A stretch of 64,000 nt of DNA, from assembly GCA_021787495.1 (NCBI GenBank), contig JAJYLX010000002.1, positions 53,455 through 117,454 of the forward strand. Reading direction: 5' to 3'. Below are positions 10,066 through 42,320 of the stretch, one piece after another. Numbering within the stretch: position 1 is the stretch's first letter; every line of letters starts with the position of its first letter. The position numbers and the translations under genes are program-made. The notes beneath the pieces are model-generated. The model searched no databases, had not been told where the DNA came from, and saw only the letters and a program-made list of their open reading frames with translations. The stretch comes from Microcaldota archaeon (GTDB lineage: Archaea; Micrarchaeota; Micrarchaeia; Micrarchaeales; Micrarchaeaceae).

Positions 10066-11175
10066 TCACGGCAGGAACTCCTGCGCGCGCACCTTGTCGC
10101 GGATGTAGTCGCCTATGAACGTCAGCCTCGGCCCCTGGAGCGAGTCCTGCTCGAGCTTCGTCTTCGTCTGCATGACCTTCTTCAGCTCCGCCACCCACTC
10201 CTTGTGGCGGTTTATCCACGGGTAGGAGAGCATCTCCTGCGCGCGCTTCAGGTCCATCTCGTTCGCCTTCATGGTCAGCTTCTTCAGGAAGTCGTAGCGC
10301 TCGATGTCGGCCATCGTGACGCCCAAGAACCTCGCCTTCGGGGTAGCTATCTCGTTGCTGATGTAGGCGAGGTTCATGCTGCCCGTCTTTATCGTCCAGT
10401 AGATGTACCACCCCCATGCGTCGCAGTCGTTGAAGACGTAAACGGGGAGCCCCATGTCCGACAGCTTCCTTATCAGCCTCCTCGTGCCCCTCGACGCCTG
10501 GCCCTTCGGCGTTATGAGTATGCAGTTCTCCTTCTGCCAGAACCTGTCCTCGTTCAGCCTCTGCCATATGGCGTCCTTCTCCACAGAGAGGACGTACTTC
10601 GCCTTCACGTCCACGAACTCGATGTCGTTGTCAACGTCGCTCGGTATCGGCCAGCCGCCCCTCCCCTGCTTGGTCGCATCGATCTCCTGCCGCTCGTCCC
10701 CGAAGCTGTCCACAATGCGCATGTTGCCCGCGAGGAAGCCCTTCCTGTCCGCGCTCAGGTTGAGGTCCTCCCTCTTCACGCCGAGGGCGACCTCCAGGTC
10801 CTCTATCAGGGGATTGGACTCGCTCTGCTCCTCGAACAGGTTCTCGTCTACGTCCTCCCCGAGCGAGAACTTCAGCTGGTAGTAGAGGCCCCTTATCGAG
10901 GTGTGGAGGTTCTCGTTCAGGAACGTGTGGCACCTCGACGCGACCGCGATGGTCTGCATGAACTTCTTCGACTGCGCTATGTTGATGAAGCTGCGCTCCT
11001 CCTTCGCGGCGCCGAGCCTGAGCACGGCCTCCTTCTCGTCGTACTTTATGTTCGACCTCGACCTGGTGGGCGCCTCGAAGCTCGGGTTCCTGCCCCTGTA
11101 GATAGTGTCGACTATCCCGCCGCCGAAGGCCTTGAGCCTCGCAGCTGTCTCGTTGTCCTGCTTCCTGGCTGCCAC
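10066..11175 (-). CDS. top6A: DNA topoisomerase VI subunit A (Spo11-like)
   Basis: A 369-residue Top6A/Spo11 homologue. The winged-helix domain carries the presumed catalytic tyrosine in SIRGLYYQLKF; the Toprim domain shows VEKDAIWQRL (metal-binding Glu), LITPKGQASRGTRRLI, and the acidic FNDCDAWGWYIY, where most archaeal proteins read DGDPYG. It makes double-strand breaks for strand passage together with Top6B. The usual neighbour top6B is absent from this window. The divergent Toprim motif keeps both aspartates. Confidence 0.88.
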   Translation of the reverse strand: MAARKQDNETAARLKAFGGGIVDTIYRGRNPSFEAPTRSRSNIKYDEKEAVLRLGAAKEERSFINIAQSKKFMQTIAVASRCHTFLNENLHTSIRGLYYQLKFSLGEDVDENLFEEQSESNPLIEDLEVALGVKREDLNLSADRKGFLAGNMRIVDSFGDERQEIDATKQGRGGWPIPSDVDNDIEFVDVKAKYVLSVEKDAIWQRLNEDRFWQKENCILITPKGQASRGTRRLIRKLSDMGLPVYVFNDCDAWGWYIYWTIKTGSMNLAYISNEIATPKARFLGVTMADIERYDFLKKLTMKANEMDLKRAQEMLSYPWINRHKEWVAELKKVMQTKTKLEQDSLQGPRLTFIGDYIRDKVRAQEFLP

Positions 11176-11240
11176 CGAATCGCCTCAGATATCTCGCCGA
11201 GAAGTGTAATAAACCTTCTTGCCGAATCCATTACGGAAGC

Positions 11241-11325
11241 GCAGGGGTGGCGGAGCCAGGTCAAACGCGCAAGGCTTAGGACCTTGTTCCTTAGGGATGC
11301 GAGAGTTCGAATCTCTCCCCCTGCA
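11241..11325 (+). tRNA. tRNA-Leu(UAG), host gene of the integrated element
   Basis: An 85-nt class II tRNA: acceptor GCAGGGG pairs with CCCCTGC, D-stem GCG/CGC, anticodon stem CAAGG/CCTTG with loop CTTAGGA (anticodon TAG), a long variable arm, T-stem GAGAG/CTCTC with loop TTCGAAT, discriminator A. There is no intron. Its last 26 bases form attL of the integrated element, and the tRNA remains complete. Confidence 0.96.
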
Positions 11326-11326
11326 A
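11300..11326 (+). repeat. attL, left attachment site of the integrated element
   Basis: A 27-bp sequence covering the 3' end of tRNA-Leu(UAG), from the T-stem to the base after the discriminator. It recurs at 16547-16573 with a single difference (G at 11309, A at 16556). The int(C) frame reads through it as RVRISPPA. Confidence 0.93.
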
Positions 11327-12192
11327 ATCCAATTTGCGACGTCAAAGCAGGGTTCGGAAATCCGAAACGTAAATCTCCAAGGAAGGAAGATTTCGAGGAT
11401 TTCTCCGAAACCCTCAAGCAGGTGTCCATGAACATTTCATGGCACCAATTACAGAAACTGCAATCTGTATTACATAAAACGCAAACCAAGAGGTTTGCCG
11501 GAAAGAGGAAGACGCCGAAATATGGCTCAATCTCAAAGGCGTTTTCCGAGTCGCAGCTTCAAAGGTTCCTTCACGTAATAGACTCTGATAAGTTCCGCTT
11601 GCTATTCAGCTACCAAGCGCAGCTTGGGCTTAGAATAGGCGAGGCGGTCAGAGTCAATATCAACTCAATAGACTTAGAGACGAGGGAACTTACCTTGAAG
11701 ACCGAAAAGGCTCAGGTTATGGACTCGTTATTGATACCAATGCCCTTATTCAAGGATACCATAGCCTTCATCACTAAGCACAGAGCGGAGATTGAGAAGG
11801 CGCAGGGATTCCTGTTCTACGCTGACAAGCTGAGAACGAAAAGGCCAGAGCCTTACTTGGAGCAGAACTACGTAAGGCACATATTCAGGGAATACGTACG
11901 GATGGCTGGCTTGGACGAGGTGTATGACACCTCAGATGAATCAAGCCAAGACAGGAGCGTAAGGCAGCTTCACAGGCTTACAACGCATAGCCTTAGGCAT
12001 TACGCCATAACGGCCTTCGCAAAGCAGACTAACGGCAATCTGGTGCTGACAAGCAGGTTCGCTAGGCATAGCGATCCCAGCACCACGATGACCTACATAA
12101 GCACTAGGAAAGAGGAGCTTTACAAGGAGATAGACAACGCCTTCGGGCTGAACCAAGCAGTAAGCCTCAAAGCGCGCATCTCCGGCAATTAG
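11326..12192 (+). CDS. Tyrosine recombinase (integrase), C-terminal part int(C)
   Basis: The catalytic part of a tyrosine recombinase. Visible motifs are LGLRIGEAVRV (first Arg), LTTHSLRHYAITAF (HxxR) and FARHSDPSTTMTYI (His and the nucleophilic Tyr). The frame runs back through attL and the tRNA without a stop. Joined across the att core to the 28 codons at 16489-16572 it would give a 316-residue protein, normal for SSV-type integrases. In the integrated state it has lost its own start and promoter; internal starts at 11422 (GTG) or 11428 (ATG) could give a shorter protein lacking the first part. This is the known inactivation-by-integration design of SSV-type integrases. Confidence 0.92.
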   Translation, partial: NPICDVKAGFGNPKRKSPRKEDFEDFSETLKQVSMNISWHQLQKLQSVLHKTQTKRFAGKRKTPKYGSISKAFSESQLQRFLHVIDSDKFRLLFSYQAQLGLRIGEAVRVNINSIDLETRELTLKTEKAQVMDSLLIPMPLFKDTIAFITKHRAEIEKAQGFLFYADKLRTKRPEPYLEQNYVRHIFREYVRMAGLDEVYDTSDESSQDRSVRQLHRLTTHSLRHYAITAFAKQTNGNLVLTSRFARHSDPSTTMTYISTRKEELYKEIDNAFGLNQAVSLKARISGN

Positions 12193-12251
12193 CCGGGTTC
12201 CTGCCGGAAAGGTTTAAAATCATGAACTGCGTTATATTATTGTTGATTTAT

Positions 12252-12473
12252 ATGGGCGGCATACAGACACAGCAAACCATAAACAGGCAGCTAAACGCCA
12301 AGCTTGACAGGATAGCCAAGATGCTCAGCATAGTCATCGAGCGCATGGACGAGGCCGAGCCAGACAAAAAGATGATAAGCAGGATAGCGAAGGAGTGGAA
12401 GGCGATAGATTCAGGCAGGATGAAGGTTCACCACTATAAGAGCCTGGCTGATTTTGACAGAGCGATAGGCTGA
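12252..12473 (+). CDS. Putative antitoxin of a RelBE-like pair
   Basis: A 73-residue charged, helical protein directly ahead of a RelE-like toxin, separated by four bases. It begins MGGIQTQQTINRQLNAKLDRI and ends with a segment, HHYKSLADFDRAIG, of the kind antitoxins use to wrap their toxin. A TATA-like GGTTTAAAATC at 12209-12219 supports this ATG and not the earlier one at 12222. The function is inferred from size and context, not from a recognised fold. Confidence 0.7.
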   Translation: MGGIQTQQTINRQLNAKLDRIAKMLSIVIERMDEAEPDKKMISRIAKEWKAIDSGRMKVHHYKSLADFDRAIG

Positions 12474-12477
12474 TTTC

Positions 12478-12729
12478 ATGGCCTACAAACCTGCATTCAG
12501 CGACAAGATGCAGGAGGAGTTGGCGTACAGGAAGAAGCGTGACAGGGCATCGTACGAACAGGCCATGAAGAAGATAGCACTGGTTCTTGAAAATCCAGAC
12601 ATAGGCAAGCCGATGCGCGCACCGCTTCATGGCATACGCAGGTTCCACGTAGGTCATCTGGTCGTTACATACAGGATAAACGAAGAGGCGCACGAGGTAG
12701 TCTTCACCTCATTCGAGCATCACGAGTAA
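12478..12729 (+). CDS. RelE/ParE-superfamily toxin
   Basis: An 83-residue basic protein. The RelE-like core is visible: YEQAMKKIALVLENP, then GKPMRAPLHGIRRFHVGHLVVTYRI and VVFTSFEHHE, i.e. the four-stranded sheet with a terminal histidine-containing strand. Archaeal RelE toxins cut mRNA at the ribosome A site; ParE relatives instead act on gyrase, so the target is not certain. It pairs with the upstream antitoxin and probably stabilises the integrated element. Confidence 0.85.
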   Translation: MAYKPAFSDKMQEELAYRKKRDRASYEQAMKKIALVLENPDIGKPMRAPLHGIRRFHVGHLVVTYRINEEAHEVVFTSFEHHE

Positions 12730-12743
12730 GCAACTATCTACTT

Positions 12744-13040
12744 CTCTACACAGTTCATCTTTCTCTACACACCTAGTTAAATCCGTGTAGAGAACTGTTT
12801 CGAGGGAAACCCTTGTAAAAAGACCTTTTTCTCTCTACACTACTGCACAGCATTATAAGAGCTGTCCATGTAGAGTTTCGTGAAGAGACCTTGAACTAAA
12901 GACCTCCAAGCAACTAAAGACCCATAGCTGAAAAAGGTCTTTAGTAAGCCCTACGATGACAAGCTCTGAAACGACCTAGGATTTACGAGGGACTTCTAAC
13001 CATCAATAATACAGCATACCTCTTAAGTTGAGGTCTTTAA
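12744..13040. repeat. Iteron-like short repeats in the element's non-coding region
   Basis: Two families of short repeats fill an AT-rich stretch. Family 1, CTCTACAC, occurs at 12744, 12763 and 12833 and inverted at 12785, with a one-mismatch inverted copy at 12868. Family 2, AAAGACCT-like, occurs near 12819, 12885, 12896 and 12913 and inverted near 12935 and 13031. The copies at 12912-12921 and 12936-12945 are a perfect 10-bp inverted repeat. Such directly and inversely repeated motifs in a gene-free region are typical of plasmid origins, partition sites or operator clusters. Which of these applies is not shown by the sequence. Confidence 0.75.
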
Positions 13041-13059
13041 TAAGCCTCCTCCGCCTCAC

Positions 13060-13260
13060 TCCCTTCACCTGCTCTGGGCAGGTTCGGGCGTGCCGAACTT
13101 CGTTCGGACGGCGGCTACGGCTACCAGACCCAACGGGCAAGGCTGCTTCTGGGTGGGGGCAGAAGCAGCCGCAGAGGTTCCTTAAAGGCCAGAGGCCGCT
13201 GCTAGGTTGCTAGCTTAAAGCCAAGTTGTGGCGGCCCCCTCGTGAACTGCGAAAGATGGA
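13060..13260. ncRNA. GC-rich hairpin-forming segment, candidate structured RNA
   Basis: A markedly GC-rich island inside the otherwise AT-rich element and between its genes. It contains GTTCGG/CCGAAC (13081-13097 region), an overlapping CCGAA/TTCGG hairpin, and an 11-bp perfect stem GGCTGCTTCTG (13141-13151) with CAGAAGCAGCC (13160-13170) around an eight-base G-rich loop. The only ORF across it (13028-13213) has no protein-like pattern. Strand and boundaries are unknown. It may be a regulatory RNA, a replication-related structure or a recombination site. Confidence 0.4.
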
Positions 13261-13344
13261 GAGAGGCACGAACGACCATCTTGAGCTAGTGAACGAGCTG
13301 GGGTTTTTGAAAGGATTGCATTTATTTTAAGTTACAGGCAAAAA

Positions 13345-13358
13345 AAAAACAAATATAA
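13345..13358 (+). promoter_or_regulatory. TATA-like promoter of the beta-helix gene
   Basis: After a run of nine A residues the sequence AACAAATATAAACA provides a TATA-like element. The predicted transcript start lies about 25 bases downstream, shortly before the ATG at 13396, which supports that start over the TTG at 13381. Confidence 0.5.
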
Positions 13359-13395
13359 ACATTCATATTGCATATACCCCTTGTGCGTGATCTTC

Positions 13396-14613
13396 ATGGC
13401 AGCTTCTCAGCCCATCAGATGGATAATTGGCATCATAATAGTAGTGCTTGTAATCGTGGTTGCGATTGGCTATGTCGGCAAGCCGAGCAGCGGCCCATCA
13501 AGCACGAGCATATCGCAATTGCAGAACAGCACCACTACGGTAGCACAAGCCCCAGCAGAGCTGTACGTCAGCGTATTGGGATCAGACTCGGCGAATGGCG
13601 CCAGTTCAACTCCACTAAGAACGATAAACCGCGCAATAACACTAACCAAGCCGGGCCAGACCATAATAGTAGAACCAGGGACTTACAACGAGCAGATAAA
13701 CATAACATCCAGAGTCATAATTGAAGGCGAAGGCACCAATACTACGATAATAAACGCTTCGGGCCAGATGAACGGCATAAACATTATCGGGCCAGGGGCT
13801 AACGGCACCGTGGTAAGCAATCTCACAGTAGAAAACGCCGATAACCACGGAATATACGCTCAGGATGTTGGCAATGTAAAGATTGTAAATAACCTAGTAG
13901 AACGCAATGGCGTTAATGCCACAACCTGCCCGAGCCCTCCGGCAAAGCCTACCGGGCCGTGCATAAATGAAGATAAGCCAATAGCGCTTGTAGGAACTAG
14001 CAACGTTACTGTAGAGAACAACATAGTGACAAACAACCTGGCCGATGGAGGCATCAGCGTGGCAGATCTCGGATTCATAAATCCCGGAAGCCTCGTCGCT
14101 ACCGATATCTTAGTGAACGCTACGCACAACAGGATAATCAGGAACAGAGTCATGTATAACAAAGGCGGATGTGGCATAGTTGTCGCTTCTTACAACAAGG
14201 GCGTAATAGACAATATCGTGGAAGATAACTTCGTGGGCTTTGGTGTGGCAGGCATAGTTGTCGCTACCGATACACCGAATTCCACCGCGCTGAACAATCA
14301 AGTCATCAACAACACCGTTACAGAAAATTTCATACCTGGCATAATAGTGCATTCCAATGCGCCGGGGGATGTTCTGTCGAATACCACGGTAGAGTTAAAT
14401 AGGGTAAGCGGCAACGGCGCCGATGCGGAAGTAGGTGCGATGAACAAGACTGGCATTCTGGCCTCTGGAGATGTGATGCCCATATCGAATACTACAATAA
14501 AGTACAATAACGTAAGTAACGAGTATTATGGCATATGGCTGAGAAATGCGCCTGGTGCAAACATAGCGAACAACACTTTTGCAAATGTAACGGTAGCTAA
14601 CTACACCAAGTGA
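13396..14613 (+). CDS. Membrane-anchored right-handed beta-helix surface protein
   Basis: 405 residues. An N-terminal membrane segment (IIGIIIVVLVIVVAIGYVG, residues about 9-27) acts as signal anchor; a Ser/Thr/Gln-rich linker follows. From about residue 60 on there is a parallel beta-helix: YVSVLGSDSANG and TPLRTINRAI as in DUF1565 proteins, then repeated strands with INITSRVIIEGEG, NVKIVNNLVERNG, NVTVENNIVTNN, NTTVELNRVSGNG and NTTIKYNNVSN. Many N-x-S/T sequons suggest glycosylation outside the cell. Carbohydrate binding or cleavage is possible, but no catalytic residues can be assigned. It is cargo of the integrated element. Confidence 0.85.
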   Translation: MAASQPIRWIIGIIIVVLVIVVAIGYVGKPSSGPSSTSISQLQNSTTTVAQAPAELYVSVLGSDSANGASSTPLRTINRAITLTKPGQTIIVEPGTYNEQINITSRVIIEGEGTNTTIINASGQMNGINIIGPGANGTVVSNLTVENADNHGIYAQDVGNVKIVNNLVERNGVNATTCPSPPAKPTGPCINEDKPIALVGTSNVTVENNIVTNNLADGGISVADLGFINPGSLVATDILVNATHNRIIRNRVMYNKGGCGIVVASYNKGVIDNIVEDNFVGFGVAGIVVATDTPNSTALNNQVINNTVTENFIPGIIVHSNAPGDVLSNTTVELNRVSGNGADAEVGAMNKTGILASGDVMPISNTTIKYNNVSNEYYGIWLRNAPGANIANNTFANVTVANYTK

Positions 14614-14647
14614 GGTGCCTCGCATAATAAGAACGCGTGGAGATGAA

Positions 14648-15451
14648 GTGGCAAAATCGGAGAGCATAAGCTACGTAGCGGGCAACGATTCGATCGAAGC
14701 ATATCTCGCATATCCTGACGATGCAGAAAAGCATCCCGGAGTGGTACTGATACACGAGATATTCGGGCTTGATGACCATATCAGGAAAATCGCTGACAGG
14801 CTTGCAGGGGAGGGGTACGTAGTCTTGGCACCGCATCTCTTTTCCAGCAGCAAGCTGTCTAAGGTTCTTTCGCAGCAAAATATCTCCGCTGCAATGAAGT
14901 TTATGATGTCCATACCCGTGGAGAAGCAGAGGGATGAGGAGTACAGGTCCGAGGCGCTTGCAAAGCTCGGCGAACAGGAGAGAGACGTAGTATCAGGTGT
15001 AAATCAGCTGCTTTTTGCAAACAGGCCAACAGATCTGCTAACAGGATATCTGTCATACGGTGTAGACTACCTTAAAACACTGGAAAATGTTAGCGATAGG
15101 ATAGGCAGCGTTGGCTTTTGCTTCGGCGGCGGCATGTCAATAAATCTAAGTTGCACGGGCAAGATAGCAGCATGTGTTATATTCTACGGTGAGAACCCGA
15201 GCTCCATAGAAAAGATAAAGGACGTCAATGGCAGCATCATGGGCCTGTACGGCGGCGAGGACCGCAGAATAAACTCAGGATTGGGAGAGCTTGTAAAGGC
15301 TATGGTGGAATACAATAAACCATTTACTATACGGGTATTCCCCGGAGCGTACCACGGGTTCTTCAACAACGCACGACCTCAGACCTATAACAAGCAGGCA
15401 GCCGAAGAGGCTTGGGGCATGCTACTAGAGTTTTACAGGACTAACCTGTAG
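14648..15451 (+). CDS. Dienelactone hydrolase family alpha/beta hydrolase
   Basis: About 267 residues from the GTG at 14648, which has a GGAGATG Shine-Dalgarno-like element just ahead; the frame is also open from a GTG at 14615. The alpha/beta fold shows VVLIHEIFGLDDHI (oxyanion region), the nucleophile elbow GFCFGGG with a cysteine as in dienelactone hydrolases, the acid in YGGEDRRI and the histidine in FPGAYHGFFNN. The natural substrate is unknown; the family hydrolyses lactones and esters. It lies three bases or so from the beta-helix gene, perhaps as one transcription unit of the element. Confidence 0.88.
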   Translation: MAKSESISYVAGNDSIEAYLAYPDDAEKHPGVVLIHEIFGLDDHIRKIADRLAGEGYVVLAPHLFSSSKLSKVLSQQNISAAMKFMMSIPVEKQRDEEYRSEALAKLGEQERDVVSGVNQLLFANRPTDLLTGYLSYGVDYLKTLENVSDRIGSVGFCFGGGMSINLSCTGKIAACVIFYGENPSSIEKIKDVNGSIMGLYGGEDRRINSGLGELVKAMVEYNKPFTIRVFPGAYHGFFNNARPQTYNKQAAEEAWGMLLEFYRTNL

Positions 15452-15499
15452 CGAGCCTAACGGATACCATATTTATAACAGATATCCAGATTTGATCTT

Positions 15500-16363
15500 G
15501 TGATTGATAAAAAGCACAGACATTCGATGCAAGGCGCGATACCGCCAGATGCGAATGTGCGCGGAATGCATCTGCAAAGGGAGAGCATACAGAGCGGCTT
15601 TCCCCCTTATACAAGCCGTCTTCTGATTCAGAGTTTTCTTTTTGGGCTTATACCTCCTATCGCGCTAGTAGCCGCGATCATCCTAAAAAACCTAATGCTG
15701 TTGACCTACACGCATGTCATGTCGGCAGTGATGTGGACGGGCTTTGACCTCTTCATGGCGCTGATACTTGGGAGGGTGCTCAGGTCTCTTGACATAGCTG
15801 GGAGGGTGGAGGTGGCCAAAAGGCTCACTCCATCCACATTCTTCATACTGCCCTCGCTGGCGGCAACTACCATAACAGCAGGCATATACCTTGCAATGTC
15901 TCTTGGAGTCTTTAATCTCGCGTATTTTTGGATAGTGGCTGCATTGTTCATAGTCGCCATACTGACCGTCCAGGGCTTCGTCATTCTCATGCCGAACAGC
16001 ATGAGAATATTCATAGAGCTCGCGAAGTCAAATCCCAGCAAGGAGAGGATAGCGAAGCTCAACGGCATAAACATAAGACTCGCCGGCGTACAGGGAGCGT
16101 TCCAGATTGTAATAATCTTCATAATGGTGAACATATCGAACCTTCCTAGCGCCACAGCGCAACTGAACCTACCAATGATTCTATACTCGCTCATTGCTTT
16201 CGCAGCGCTGTTCTTGGGCGTATATCTATTCATATACAACGGCGCACGGTCAGATTACAAGAAGGGCGAGCTAGACGAAAAGGCAATCTACACGCTCAGG
16301 TTCGGACTATACGGCCACATAATCATATTCCTTATATTGGGGCTCACGCTACTGTTTGCATAG
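15500..16363 (+). CDS. Polytopic membrane protein of the integrated element
   Basis: 287 residues with about seven hydrophobic helices after a 40-residue soluble N-terminus. The second helix region HVMSAVMWTGFDLFMALILG has the His-x6-Trp-x-Gly/Asp pattern seen in heme-containing membrane families such as HemJ/CopD-like proteins; this resemblance is weak evidence only. A TATA-like ATATTTATAAC at 15469-15479 places the transcript start close to the GTG at 15500; an ATG at 15527 is the alternative. Function unknown. Confidence 0.75.
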   Translation: MIDKKHRHSMQGAIPPDANVRGMHLQRESIQSGFPPYTSRLLIQSFLFGLIPPIALVAAIILKNLMLLTYTHVMSAVMWTGFDLFMALILGRVLRSLDIAGRVEVAKRLTPSTFFILPSLAATTITAGIYLAMSLGVFNLAYFWIVAALFIVAILTVQGFVILMPNSMRIFIELAKSNPSKERIAKLNGINIRLAGVQGAFQIVIIFIMVNISNLPSATAQLNLPMILYSLIAFAALFLGVYLFIYNGARSDYKKGELDEKAIYTLRFGLYGHIIIFLILGLTLLFA

Positions 16364-16376
16364 CCTTATGAAAGTC

Positions 16377-16448
16377 CAGATTTCCAGAAATCTGAACGCT
16401 AGCTGCTTATATACCTTGCTCGGCTATTATTCATGGTTCAGATGAACC
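16377..16448 (+). promoter_or_regulatory. Integrase promoter region with two palindromes
   Basis: Between the membrane protein gene and int(N) lie a perfect inverted repeat CAGATTTC-CA-GAAATCTG (16377-16394), a TATA-like CTTATATACC (about 16406-16415) and a second palindrome GGTTCA-GA-TGAACC (16435-16448) where transcription should begin. The layout suggests a promoter for int(N), and for the whole integrase in the excised circle, flanked or covered by repressor sites. The first palindrome could also be a terminator hairpin. Confidence 0.55.
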
Positions 16449-16488
16449 TGCTTAAGCTTAGAAAAGTTTGTTTTGTTTGGTGTGAAAT

Positions 16489-16573
16489 ATGGCTAGGAAT
16501 ATAGGCGTGAAACAGCTAGGAAACACCCTCAAACCCTTAGCGCCTTCGAGAGTTCAAATCTCTCCCCCTGCAA
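16489..16573 (+). CDS. Integrase N-terminal part int(N), ending in attR
   Basis: ATG at 16489 opens a frame of 28 codons ending ...SRVQISPPA inside attR. The same residues in the same frame (RVRISPPA) are read through attL into the integrase body. The int start codon and promoter therefore stayed at the right end when the element integrated. Beyond 16573 the frame continues into host sequence to 16743 without meaning. Confidence 0.88.
16547..16573 (+). repeat. attR, right attachment site of the integrated element
   Basis: 27-bp copy of the tRNA-Leu(UAG) 3' end, identical to 11300-11326 except at 16556. The T-loop here reads TTCAAAT instead of TTCGAAT; both are legal T-loops. Bases immediately upstream (CCTTAG at about 16535-16540) also resemble the tRNA variable arm. 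No complete tRNA is present. Confidence 0.93.
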
Positions 16574-16633
16574 GCGGGAGGCCGGGATGGGCGCGCGCTA
16601 CCTTTCGCGATTATCTCGGAGCGGGCGCGGGGC

Positions 16634-17611
16634 TCAGAACCTGCCCACGTTGCTCCACTGCGGCACTATGTCCTCCTCTCTCGGCACTATCACGTCGTCG
16701 GCCGCCGGTATGTAGATGGACAGGGAGTAGACGAACAGCATGAGCGCCGCCAGGGAGGTGAGGCCTATCACCAGGTCGTAAAGGCTCGCCGAGCTGAGGT
16801 AGTCGTAGATGAAGATCGCCGAGGTGGTCGCGCCTATCGCCAGGCCGGGGAAGACCTTCCTGCTGCCCGCGAAGAGCCAGAGCCCGAGCATGAAGCTCAG
16901 CATCGTGGCCGCGCCCCCGATTAGCGGGAAGGCGTACTGGTAGACCGGGTTGTAGACGAACGGTATGAAGCCTATGGCCGCTATGTACGACACCGCGCTC
17001 GCCAGGGCGGCGTTGTAGGAGTATATGAATACGATTACCGGGATCAGGTACGCCCCTCCCGCGATGACGCTCACGTTCGAGGACTTGTTCGATGCGGTCT
17101 CCATCCTCGAGCGTATGGCCGTGTCCATGTCCTCGAGGCAGTAGTAGTTGCCGCGCTCCGCGACTATGTCCTCGAAGCAGAACGCCCTGTGGCAGTAGCT
17201 GCATATCGCGTAGGCCTGCCTCCACGGATGCCATATGCAGTTCAGCCCAGAGGCGCTCTCCCTTGCTATGACCTCCGACTTTGTCTCCCTCGCCTGCTTC
17301 GGCCTGTGCGCCTCGAAGCCGATCTCGGCCTTCTTCGCCCTCGCCTCCTCGGCCTCCTTGCGCCTCTCCTCGGAAACCGCAGCCTTCGCCTGCTCCTTCT
17401 CGGCCTTCGCCCTCGCGGCCTTGGCCTCGTGGGCCTCTATCTTGCTGCGAAGGTCATCCAGCATGTCCCTCTCATGCTTGGGCTTTGCCGCGGGTGCGGG
17501 CTTCGCCTGGGCCCTCTTTTCCTCCGCCTTCTGCGGCTCCGCCTTTTTCTCCTCCCCTCTCTCCATCCGTTCCTTGAATATCAGAAGCTCGTTCGGATCC
17601 ATCAGGCCCAT
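16634..17611 (-). CDS. Zinc-ribbon (B-box-like) multi-pass membrane protein
   Basis: 325 residues. Residues 1-110 are highly charged and probably coiled coil (KAEEKRAQAKPAPAAK, ARAKAEKEQAKAAVSEERRK). A cysteine/histidine-rich module follows (CIWHPWRQAYAICSYCHRAF, then DIVAERGNYYCLEDM), like a B-box zinc finger. The C-terminal half has about five membrane helices. B-box-type modules bind zinc and mediate protein contact; the function here is unknown. Its ATG overlaps the end of the eS26 gene by 10 bases. Confidence 0.8.
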   Translation of the reverse strand: MGLMDPNELLIFKERMERGEEKKAEPQKAEEKRAQAKPAPAAKPKHERDMLDDLRSKIEAHEAKAARAKAEKEQAKAAVSEERRKEAEEARAKKAEIGFEAHRPKQARETKSEVIARESASGLNCIWHPWRQAYAICSYCHRAFCFEDIVAERGNYYCLEDMDTAIRSRMETASNKSSNVSVIAGGAYLIPVIVFIYSYNAALASAVSYIAAIGFIPFVYNPVYQYAFPLIGGAATMLSFMLGLWLFAGSRKVFPGLAIGATTSAIFIYDYLSSASLYDLVIGLTSLAALMLFVYSLSIYIPAADDVIVPREEDIVPQWSNVGRF

Positions 17612-42217: not shown

Positions 42218-42320
42218 GCAGGGGTAGCAAAGTCTGGTTTGGCCTCGGCCACAGAAAAATGCGCAGGACTTAAGATCCTGTGGTCTAGCACCTTCGTGAG
42301 TTCGAATCTCACCCCCTGCA
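42218..42320 (+). tRNA. tRNA-Leu(UAA) with a 19-nt intron in the D-loop
   Basis: Acceptor GCAGGGG/CCCCTGC, anticodon stem CAGGA/TCCTG with loop CTTAAGA (anticodon TAA), variable arm, T-stem GTGAG/CTCAC with loop TTCGAAT, discriminator A. The D-arm GCA/TGC encloses 30 bases; removing 42239-42257 leaves an 11-base D-loop with the invariant GG and a mature tRNA of 84. It is packed one base after the PAC2 gene. Confidence 0.93.
42239..42257 (+). other. Intron of tRNA-Leu(UAA), D-loop
   Basis: A full bulge-helix-bulge: central helix TCTG (42233-42236) with CAGA (42252-42255), a 3-base bulge GTT on the 5' strand, a 3-base bulge AAA on the 3' strand, and an inner helix TGGCC/GGCCA closing a two-base loop. 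Cutting after the second base of each bulge removes 19 bases. Confidence 0.88.

Follow-up and report, generated by a model that had tools for sequence, protein, structure and literature searches.

The window analysed here, a 64,000-nucleotide stretch of DNA from a Micrarchaeota archaeon, raises the question of whether a tRNA-Leu(UAG) gene has received a small mobile insert whose own integrase gene was cut in two by the insertion and, if so, what kind of integrase does this and how such an insert could move again. The boundaries are set by two 27-nt direct repeats that differ at one position (96% identity) and are spaced 5247 bp apart, the left one being the 3' end of the tRNA gene (Table 1), which reproduces what the first-pass annotation had described. 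The 3' part of the tRNA gene, the target of the insertion, is restored on integration, and this gene gives the sole Rfam match within positions 11000-17000. Between the repeats the GC content is ~48% (47-50%), compared with about 57-63% outside. It is thus well supported that bases 11327-16573 are a small integrative element whose integrase gene was split by integration into tRNA-Leu(UAG).

Table 1. Features of the element and its target gene, in window coordinates.
Feature	Position	Strand	Basis
tRNA-Leu(UAG), target gene, intact in the integrated state	11241..11325	+	ARAGORN; Rfam RF00005, 57.4 bits
attL core repeat, 3' end of the tRNA gene	11300..11326	+	direct repeat
CCCTGCA, predicted strand-exchange region	11319..11325	+	centre of the 19-nt gap from T-loop GTTCGAAT to ATTTGCGAC
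int(C), codons 29-316 of tyrosine recombinase	11326..12192	+	joined ORF, profile search, alignment
att right-arm DNA motif TTTGCGACGTCAAA (consensus TTTNCGACGACAAA), +28 from T-loop	11333..11346	+	comparison of 61 loci
small ORF upstream of toxin, antitoxin candidate	12252..12473	+	ORF list; without convincing family match
ParE/RelE-type toxin	12478..12729	+	PF05016, 1.6e-07; phrog_1213
block A, non-coding six-box module, CTCTACA/TGTAGAG at fixed spacing	12736..12890	+	sequence comparison
block B, ~420-bp non-coding stretch	12894..13320	+	sequence comparison
right-handed beta-helix protein with N-terminal hydrophobic segment (DUF1565/NosD-like)	13396..14613	+	profile search
dienelactone hydrolase family protein	14615..15451	+	PF01738, 2.5e-49
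hydrophobic putative membrane protein, cargo	15500..16363	+	ORF list, profile search; homologous cassette in L185
int promoter region: TCTGAAC (16391-16397), TATA-like TTATATA (16407-16413), GTTCAGA (16436-16442)	16391..16442	+	comparison of elements
int(N), codons 1-28 and first base of codon 29, running into attR	16489..16573	+	ORF list; joined frame; leader comparison
attR core repeat	16547..16573	+	direct repeat

The two parts of the gene fit together as that annotation had claimed. Int(N) opens with an ATG at 16489, behind an upstream stop at 16483, and reads MARNIGVKQLGNTLKPLAPSRVQISPPA up to the end of attR; its frame and the frame that leaves attL are in the same codon phase, and joining them yields a stop-free open reading frame of 316 residues in which codon 23 is Arg or Gln, depending on the repeat copy used. 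The attP site therefore lies inside the integrase coding sequence, and integration leaves int(N) and int(C) in phase with each other. Int(C) carries the catalytic residues Arg131, Lys156, His249-x2-Arg252, His276 and Tyr285 (TAC, 12094-12096). It also contains an in-frame GTG at 11422 and an ATG at 11428 as possible internal starts, which would yield a protein of ~255 residues and would suit a classical pNOB8-like integrase gene that starts after the tRNA and stays intact on integration, the in-phase frame at 16489 being a coincidence. This reading is contradicted by 19 elements, inserted into tRNA genes of several kinds, whose attR end has a conserved in-phase leader and a conserved upstream region, and we regard it as very hard to credit; homologues beginning past codon 28, which had been named as a finding that would speak against the split, were not what we encountered, as many relatives have a conserved leader that keeps the phase.

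This comparison rests on 22 intervals (1.8-9 kb, mostly poorer in GC than their flanks) from the loci of a GTDB genome scan and from the window's own genome, each delimited by a tRNA and the downstream copy of its 3' end. In 19 of them, the window included, an ATG-led int(N) with a conserved leader runs in phase with int(C), the leader peptides of the family beginning MARNIGVKQLGNTLKPL- or M[KE]LE-. Because a tRNA adjoining int(C), a downstream copy of its 3' end and such a leader occur together in these 19 intervals, the arrangement is not due to chance, which bears out the earlier proposal of an integrase split by integration into a tRNA gene. The layout of the promoter region is similar in most of the 19 elements listed: elements of the Leu, Glu and Val types conserve the inverted arrangement of TCTGAAC and GTTCAGA around a TATA-like box, and most of the remaining ones have it in recognisable form. 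Since this region sits at the int(N) end, integration separates the promoter from the catalytic part of the gene.

The same kind of integrase is widespread. The joined protein matches 106 of the 164 genomes of the order, the highest load being 13 matches apiece in three members of a single genus, and the GTDB scan confirmed 112 relatives, of which the 80 kept are nearly all titled as Micrarchaeota, although some MAGs were labelled Marsarchaeota or bacterium by their submitters. Neither the joined integrase nor our alignment A1 found a relative in the viral contigs searched, and the phage records searched gave none. The targets called by ARAGORN are tRNA-Leu (UAG, CAG, GAG), Glu, Val, Ala, Gln, Lys, Pro, Ser, Asn, Tyr and Arg, a few of which calls may mislabel degraded tRNA genes; tRNA-Leu(UAA) was recognised by eye as the target in L073/L056 and L086, and some family members have no ARAGORN-detected tRNA at the integrase gene. 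Target choice follows the integrase tree, with 13 changes against a mean of 35.3 after shuffling and none of 200 shuffles as low. Taken together, these elements apparently form a family of tRNA-inserting, self-splitting elements throughout Micrarchaeota that is undescribed in the literature searched. Two more homologues lie in the same 852-kb genome. One is a second split case of ~7.0 kb (G000:C5, locus L009, 1643-8749, minus strand), in which the catalytic part adjoins tRNA-Glu(UUC), a copy of the 3' half of this tRNA lies 7,032 bp away with the in-phase leader MKLENDDKAGQGRGAFNPETQVQIPMGA, the att identity extends through the anticodon arm and the cargo includes a Schlafen-type helicase ORF. 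The other (G000:C6, L010, 7650-8639, plus strand) is without a recognisable adjoining tRNA and may be a relic or have a different target. Within the window itself, a tRNA-Leu(UAA)-like gene at 42218-42320 (plus strand) has an enlarged D-loop region and was missed by ARAGORN; its counterpart is the integration target in the relatives L073 and L086. In four further loci (L112, L115, L119 and L123) a family integrase has tRNA-Pro(CGG) ~280 bp upstream with a small conserved ORF between them, and these may represent a non-split or rearranged subgroup.

Comparison of 61 loci reveals what the att site is made of. The motif TTTNCGACGACAAA stands at +28 or +29 from the T-loop, counted from the G of GTTC, in 53 of the 61, whatever the tRNA, and at +39, about one helical turn further, in three Ala-type loci; its mean match is 10.1 of 13, compared with 6.7 in shuffled flanks. 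Among members it is read in all three codon phases (for example as CDVK, TRTK or RRQ), so the constraint acts on the DNA and not on the protein, and the N-terminus of the integrase is for the most part att-site DNA that is translated incidentally. The first-pass annotation had placed attP at codons 20-28, which holds for the repeat by itself, but the conserved site reaches at least to the motif at codons 31-35. The T-loop and the motif flank a nearly constant gap, whose centre in the window is CCCTGCA, and we predict that strand exchange takes place near this point; in L072 and L081 the last mismatch between attL and attR falls 8 nt before the tRNA end, which would independently place the exchange there if the mismatches predate integration. 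A second T-arm-like sequence, GGGTTCRRA, follows the motif in most members (11346-11365 in the window, and equivalents). The idea that it covaries with the T-loop of the target tRNA was dropped, the association not being significant (isotype permutation, 0.10).

As to the kind of integrase, PF00589 is matched by all 15 aligned members, and in alignment A1 R131, K156, H249, H276 and Y285 are invariant and R252 nearly so. PF16795 (Phage_integr_3), the family to which a 2021 review ties the self-splitting integrases of SSV, pTN3-like and pT26-2-like elements with a single origin (PMC8371274), was found in 0 of the 15 members at E<=10 and in 0 of the 164 genomes of the order, while the control search was positive in Sulfolobus acidocaldarius, Methanosarcina acetivorans and Thermotoga maritima. 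Sequence matches in the PDB are weak and to XerA-like enzymes, and the AlphaFold model of int(C) (pLDDT 77, pTM 0.64) is closest to XerA among the 50 structural matches listed, which include no SSV1 integrase entry. The label 'SSV-type' given at first is thus apt for the gene architecture but not for the protein family. Since the architecture is shared and PF16795 is missing, a second origin of self-splitting outside the PF16795 superfamily is likely; that the lineage belongs to another phylum and reaches 13 matches per genome speaks for it as well.

The explanation that we favor, at a probability of roughly 90%, is a small integrative element that carries attP in the 5' coding region of int, so that integration separates the promoter from the catalytic part. 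In the circular form, an uninterrupted int would be read from its own promoter, with attP within the first ~110 bp of the gene. The integrase would recognize the T-loop of tRNA-Leu and the motif 28 nt further, and exchange strands between them, near CCCTGCA at the tRNA 3' end. Integration would then restore the tRNA, leave the catalytic part behind it at attL and carry the promoter and 28 codons to the far end at attR, a split expected to shut off int and stabilize the insert. Excision could follow through a related integrase acting in trans, through tandem insertion that rejoins promoter and gene, or through low expression of Int(C). Selection on the gene bears on these routes: against 15 Leu-group relatives, int(C) has dN of 0.06-0.11 and dS of 0.47-0.89, giving dN/dS of 0.08-0.15, which points to purifying selection. 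Such values are unlike those of a usually dead fragment, and suggest that the enzyme must work often, whether in the circle or after integration.

This selection would also suit a split that is not suicidal, in which what is lost, 28 residues, is a leader and att-encoded linker and Int(C) is a nearly complete enzyme capable of excision, started at the GTG at 11422, at the ATG at 11428 or inside the tRNA. The att-encoded residues are read in any frame, so that their peptide sequence hardly matters, and the predicted fold of int(C) begins after the att-coded part, its first 15 residues having pLDDT below 50. The promoter region, however, lies with int(N) and not with int(C), and the leader peptide is itself conserved. 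All 16 Leu-group genes that cover this stretch retain the GTG and ATG codons, but complete identity is seen at 41 of 168 conserved codons, so a conserved GTG is not unusual, and beyond this group there is no conservation of start codons behind the tRNA. We therefore rejected a conserved internal start of Int(C), which in the Leu group is not distinguishable from general codon conservation and elsewhere is absent, and consider an autonomous Int(C) rather improbable.

The equivalent locus could be compared in G080, the only genome of the same genus with both flanks. The order of topoisomerase VI subunit A, tRNA-Leu(UAG) and the right-flank gene is kept there, with ~1.1 kb between tRNA and flank gene, and the 5.25-kb element is absent, so that close relatives sharing the whole region without repeats, which had been named as evidence against integration, were not seen in this genome. 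The uninterrupted locus that had been suggested as a check was found in part, in that G080 is free of this element, but its site is not clean: it holds a different insert, in which a Fic-domain-like ORF (L052, 4549-5466; the Fic label comes from reading the sequence) lies between the tRNA and AAACTCTCCCCGCAA, a degraded stretch that resembles att. Across the family, the right-flank gene led to no clean empty site, synteny being lost outside the genus in the loci read. Searches with the N-terminal leader revealed junctions in G129, G048, G152 and G130 at which two insertions share one tRNA and the int(N) of the later leads into the beginning of the int(C) left by the earlier, and tandem insertion is a plausible route of escape from the split. 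No full-length, undamaged int gene was found, and the tandem junctions read are decayed, every one of them, those of L075, L107 and L120 included, stopping early. This decay, the split of int and the failure to find a complete Leu-group helper integrase in this genome would fit a remnant that was once mobile and is now fixed without current activity. Against this, both parts of int are open, a single base distinguishes the repeats, close relatives vary in their cargo and in whether they have the element, and int(C) is under the selection described above; we hold a dead remnant to be somewhat unlikely.

The cargo of the element is given in Table 1. The beta-helix, hydrolase and hydrophobic proteins recur together in L185, beside another copy of the block A module. 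The cargo differs in other elements, where restriction-modification genes, an AbiU/AIPR protein, a Schlafen-type helicase, a ParA-like ATPase or a GajA-like ATPase beside a type IIG enzyme were recognized; PADLOC gave no match on the cargo of the window's element. Block B is 83-88% identical between elements whose integrases are ~54-85% identical. Block A (~150 bp) lies behind int; its six boxes keep a fixed spacing and are accompanied by an AT-rich stretch that is likewise conserved; TGTAGAG occurs at 1.23 per kb in the 1.5 kb after int and at 0.13 elsewhere. An Rfam search of the non-coding blocks gave no match. A natural guess is that block A is an origin or a site recognized by a helper. 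An element mobilised like a satellite, by a plasmid or virus recognizing block A, would be compatible with our explanation and has to do with the replication and movement of the circle. Among the cargo proteins scanned, none was recognized as a virion component, a transfer protein or a replication initiator, and a three-box pattern of block A has 34 matches in 28 of the 164 genomes (reversed control, 0), mostly directly behind a family integrase. No helper was found, though, the pattern is absent from the viral contigs searched, and the many unannotated cargo ORFs could encode a replication protein; mobilisation of this kind is a real possibility to which we give somewhat less than even odds. 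Block A also occurs away from family integrases, in genomic islands (L182, L183, L185, L187, L188, L190 and L191). For several kb behind the module, L183 and L191 have ORFs that look identical although their genomes, G017 and G157, belong to two different families, which would reflect either recent transfer or binning contamination.

Among known systems, SSV-type (type I, suicidal) integrases have been described in archaea from SSV1/SSV2, pTN3 and pT26-2 (PMC8371274), and in Thaumarchaeota from NitEve-E3 (PMC6563490). They are presented as an archaeal speciality whose persistence is paradoxical, and excision in trans by related integrases has been discussed for pTN3 and SSV2 (PMC8371274). The Micrarchaeota family shares with them a tyrosine recombinase, attP in its own 5' coding sequence, the split into int(N) and int(C) and a restored tRNA (the tRNA target applying to SSV), and differs in the absence of PF16795, an int(N) of only ~28 codons, the use of many tRNA isotypes within one protein family, an att site read in different frames and small cargo elements. 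In the PDB, XerA and other Xer-type recombinases come closest both in sequence and in fold (4a8e, 5hxy), but identity in structural alignments is only ~15-18%, and the context is not that of a dif-site resolvase. Tycheposons and 'hitchers' (PMC11389934) are small tRNA-integrated cargo elements that need helpers; in broad terms, they share the tyrosine recombinase, the tRNA target, defence or other cargo and a lack of recognized transfer machinery, whereas the element reported here is archaeal and has a self-splitting integrase. The pNOB8-type (type II) elements likewise integrate into tRNA genes and keep the integrase beside the restored tRNA, but there the integrase gene stays intact (PMC8371274, PMC3293823).

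The family constitutes a large natural data set on target switching and on escape from trapping, its frame-independent att site separates the needs of the DNA from those of the protein, and it opens up the mobilome of DPANN symbionts, almost untreated in the literature searched. We tentatively suggest, with confidence a little short of even, that Micrarchaeota independently evolved self-splitting integrases in which the att site extends over the beginning of the gene and serves as an expendable linker readable in any frame, and which spread small, helper-dependent cargo elements, often defensive, into many tRNA genes. On the sequences compared, the family appears to converge on the SSV-type architecture, representing a known kind of split in a different protein lineage.
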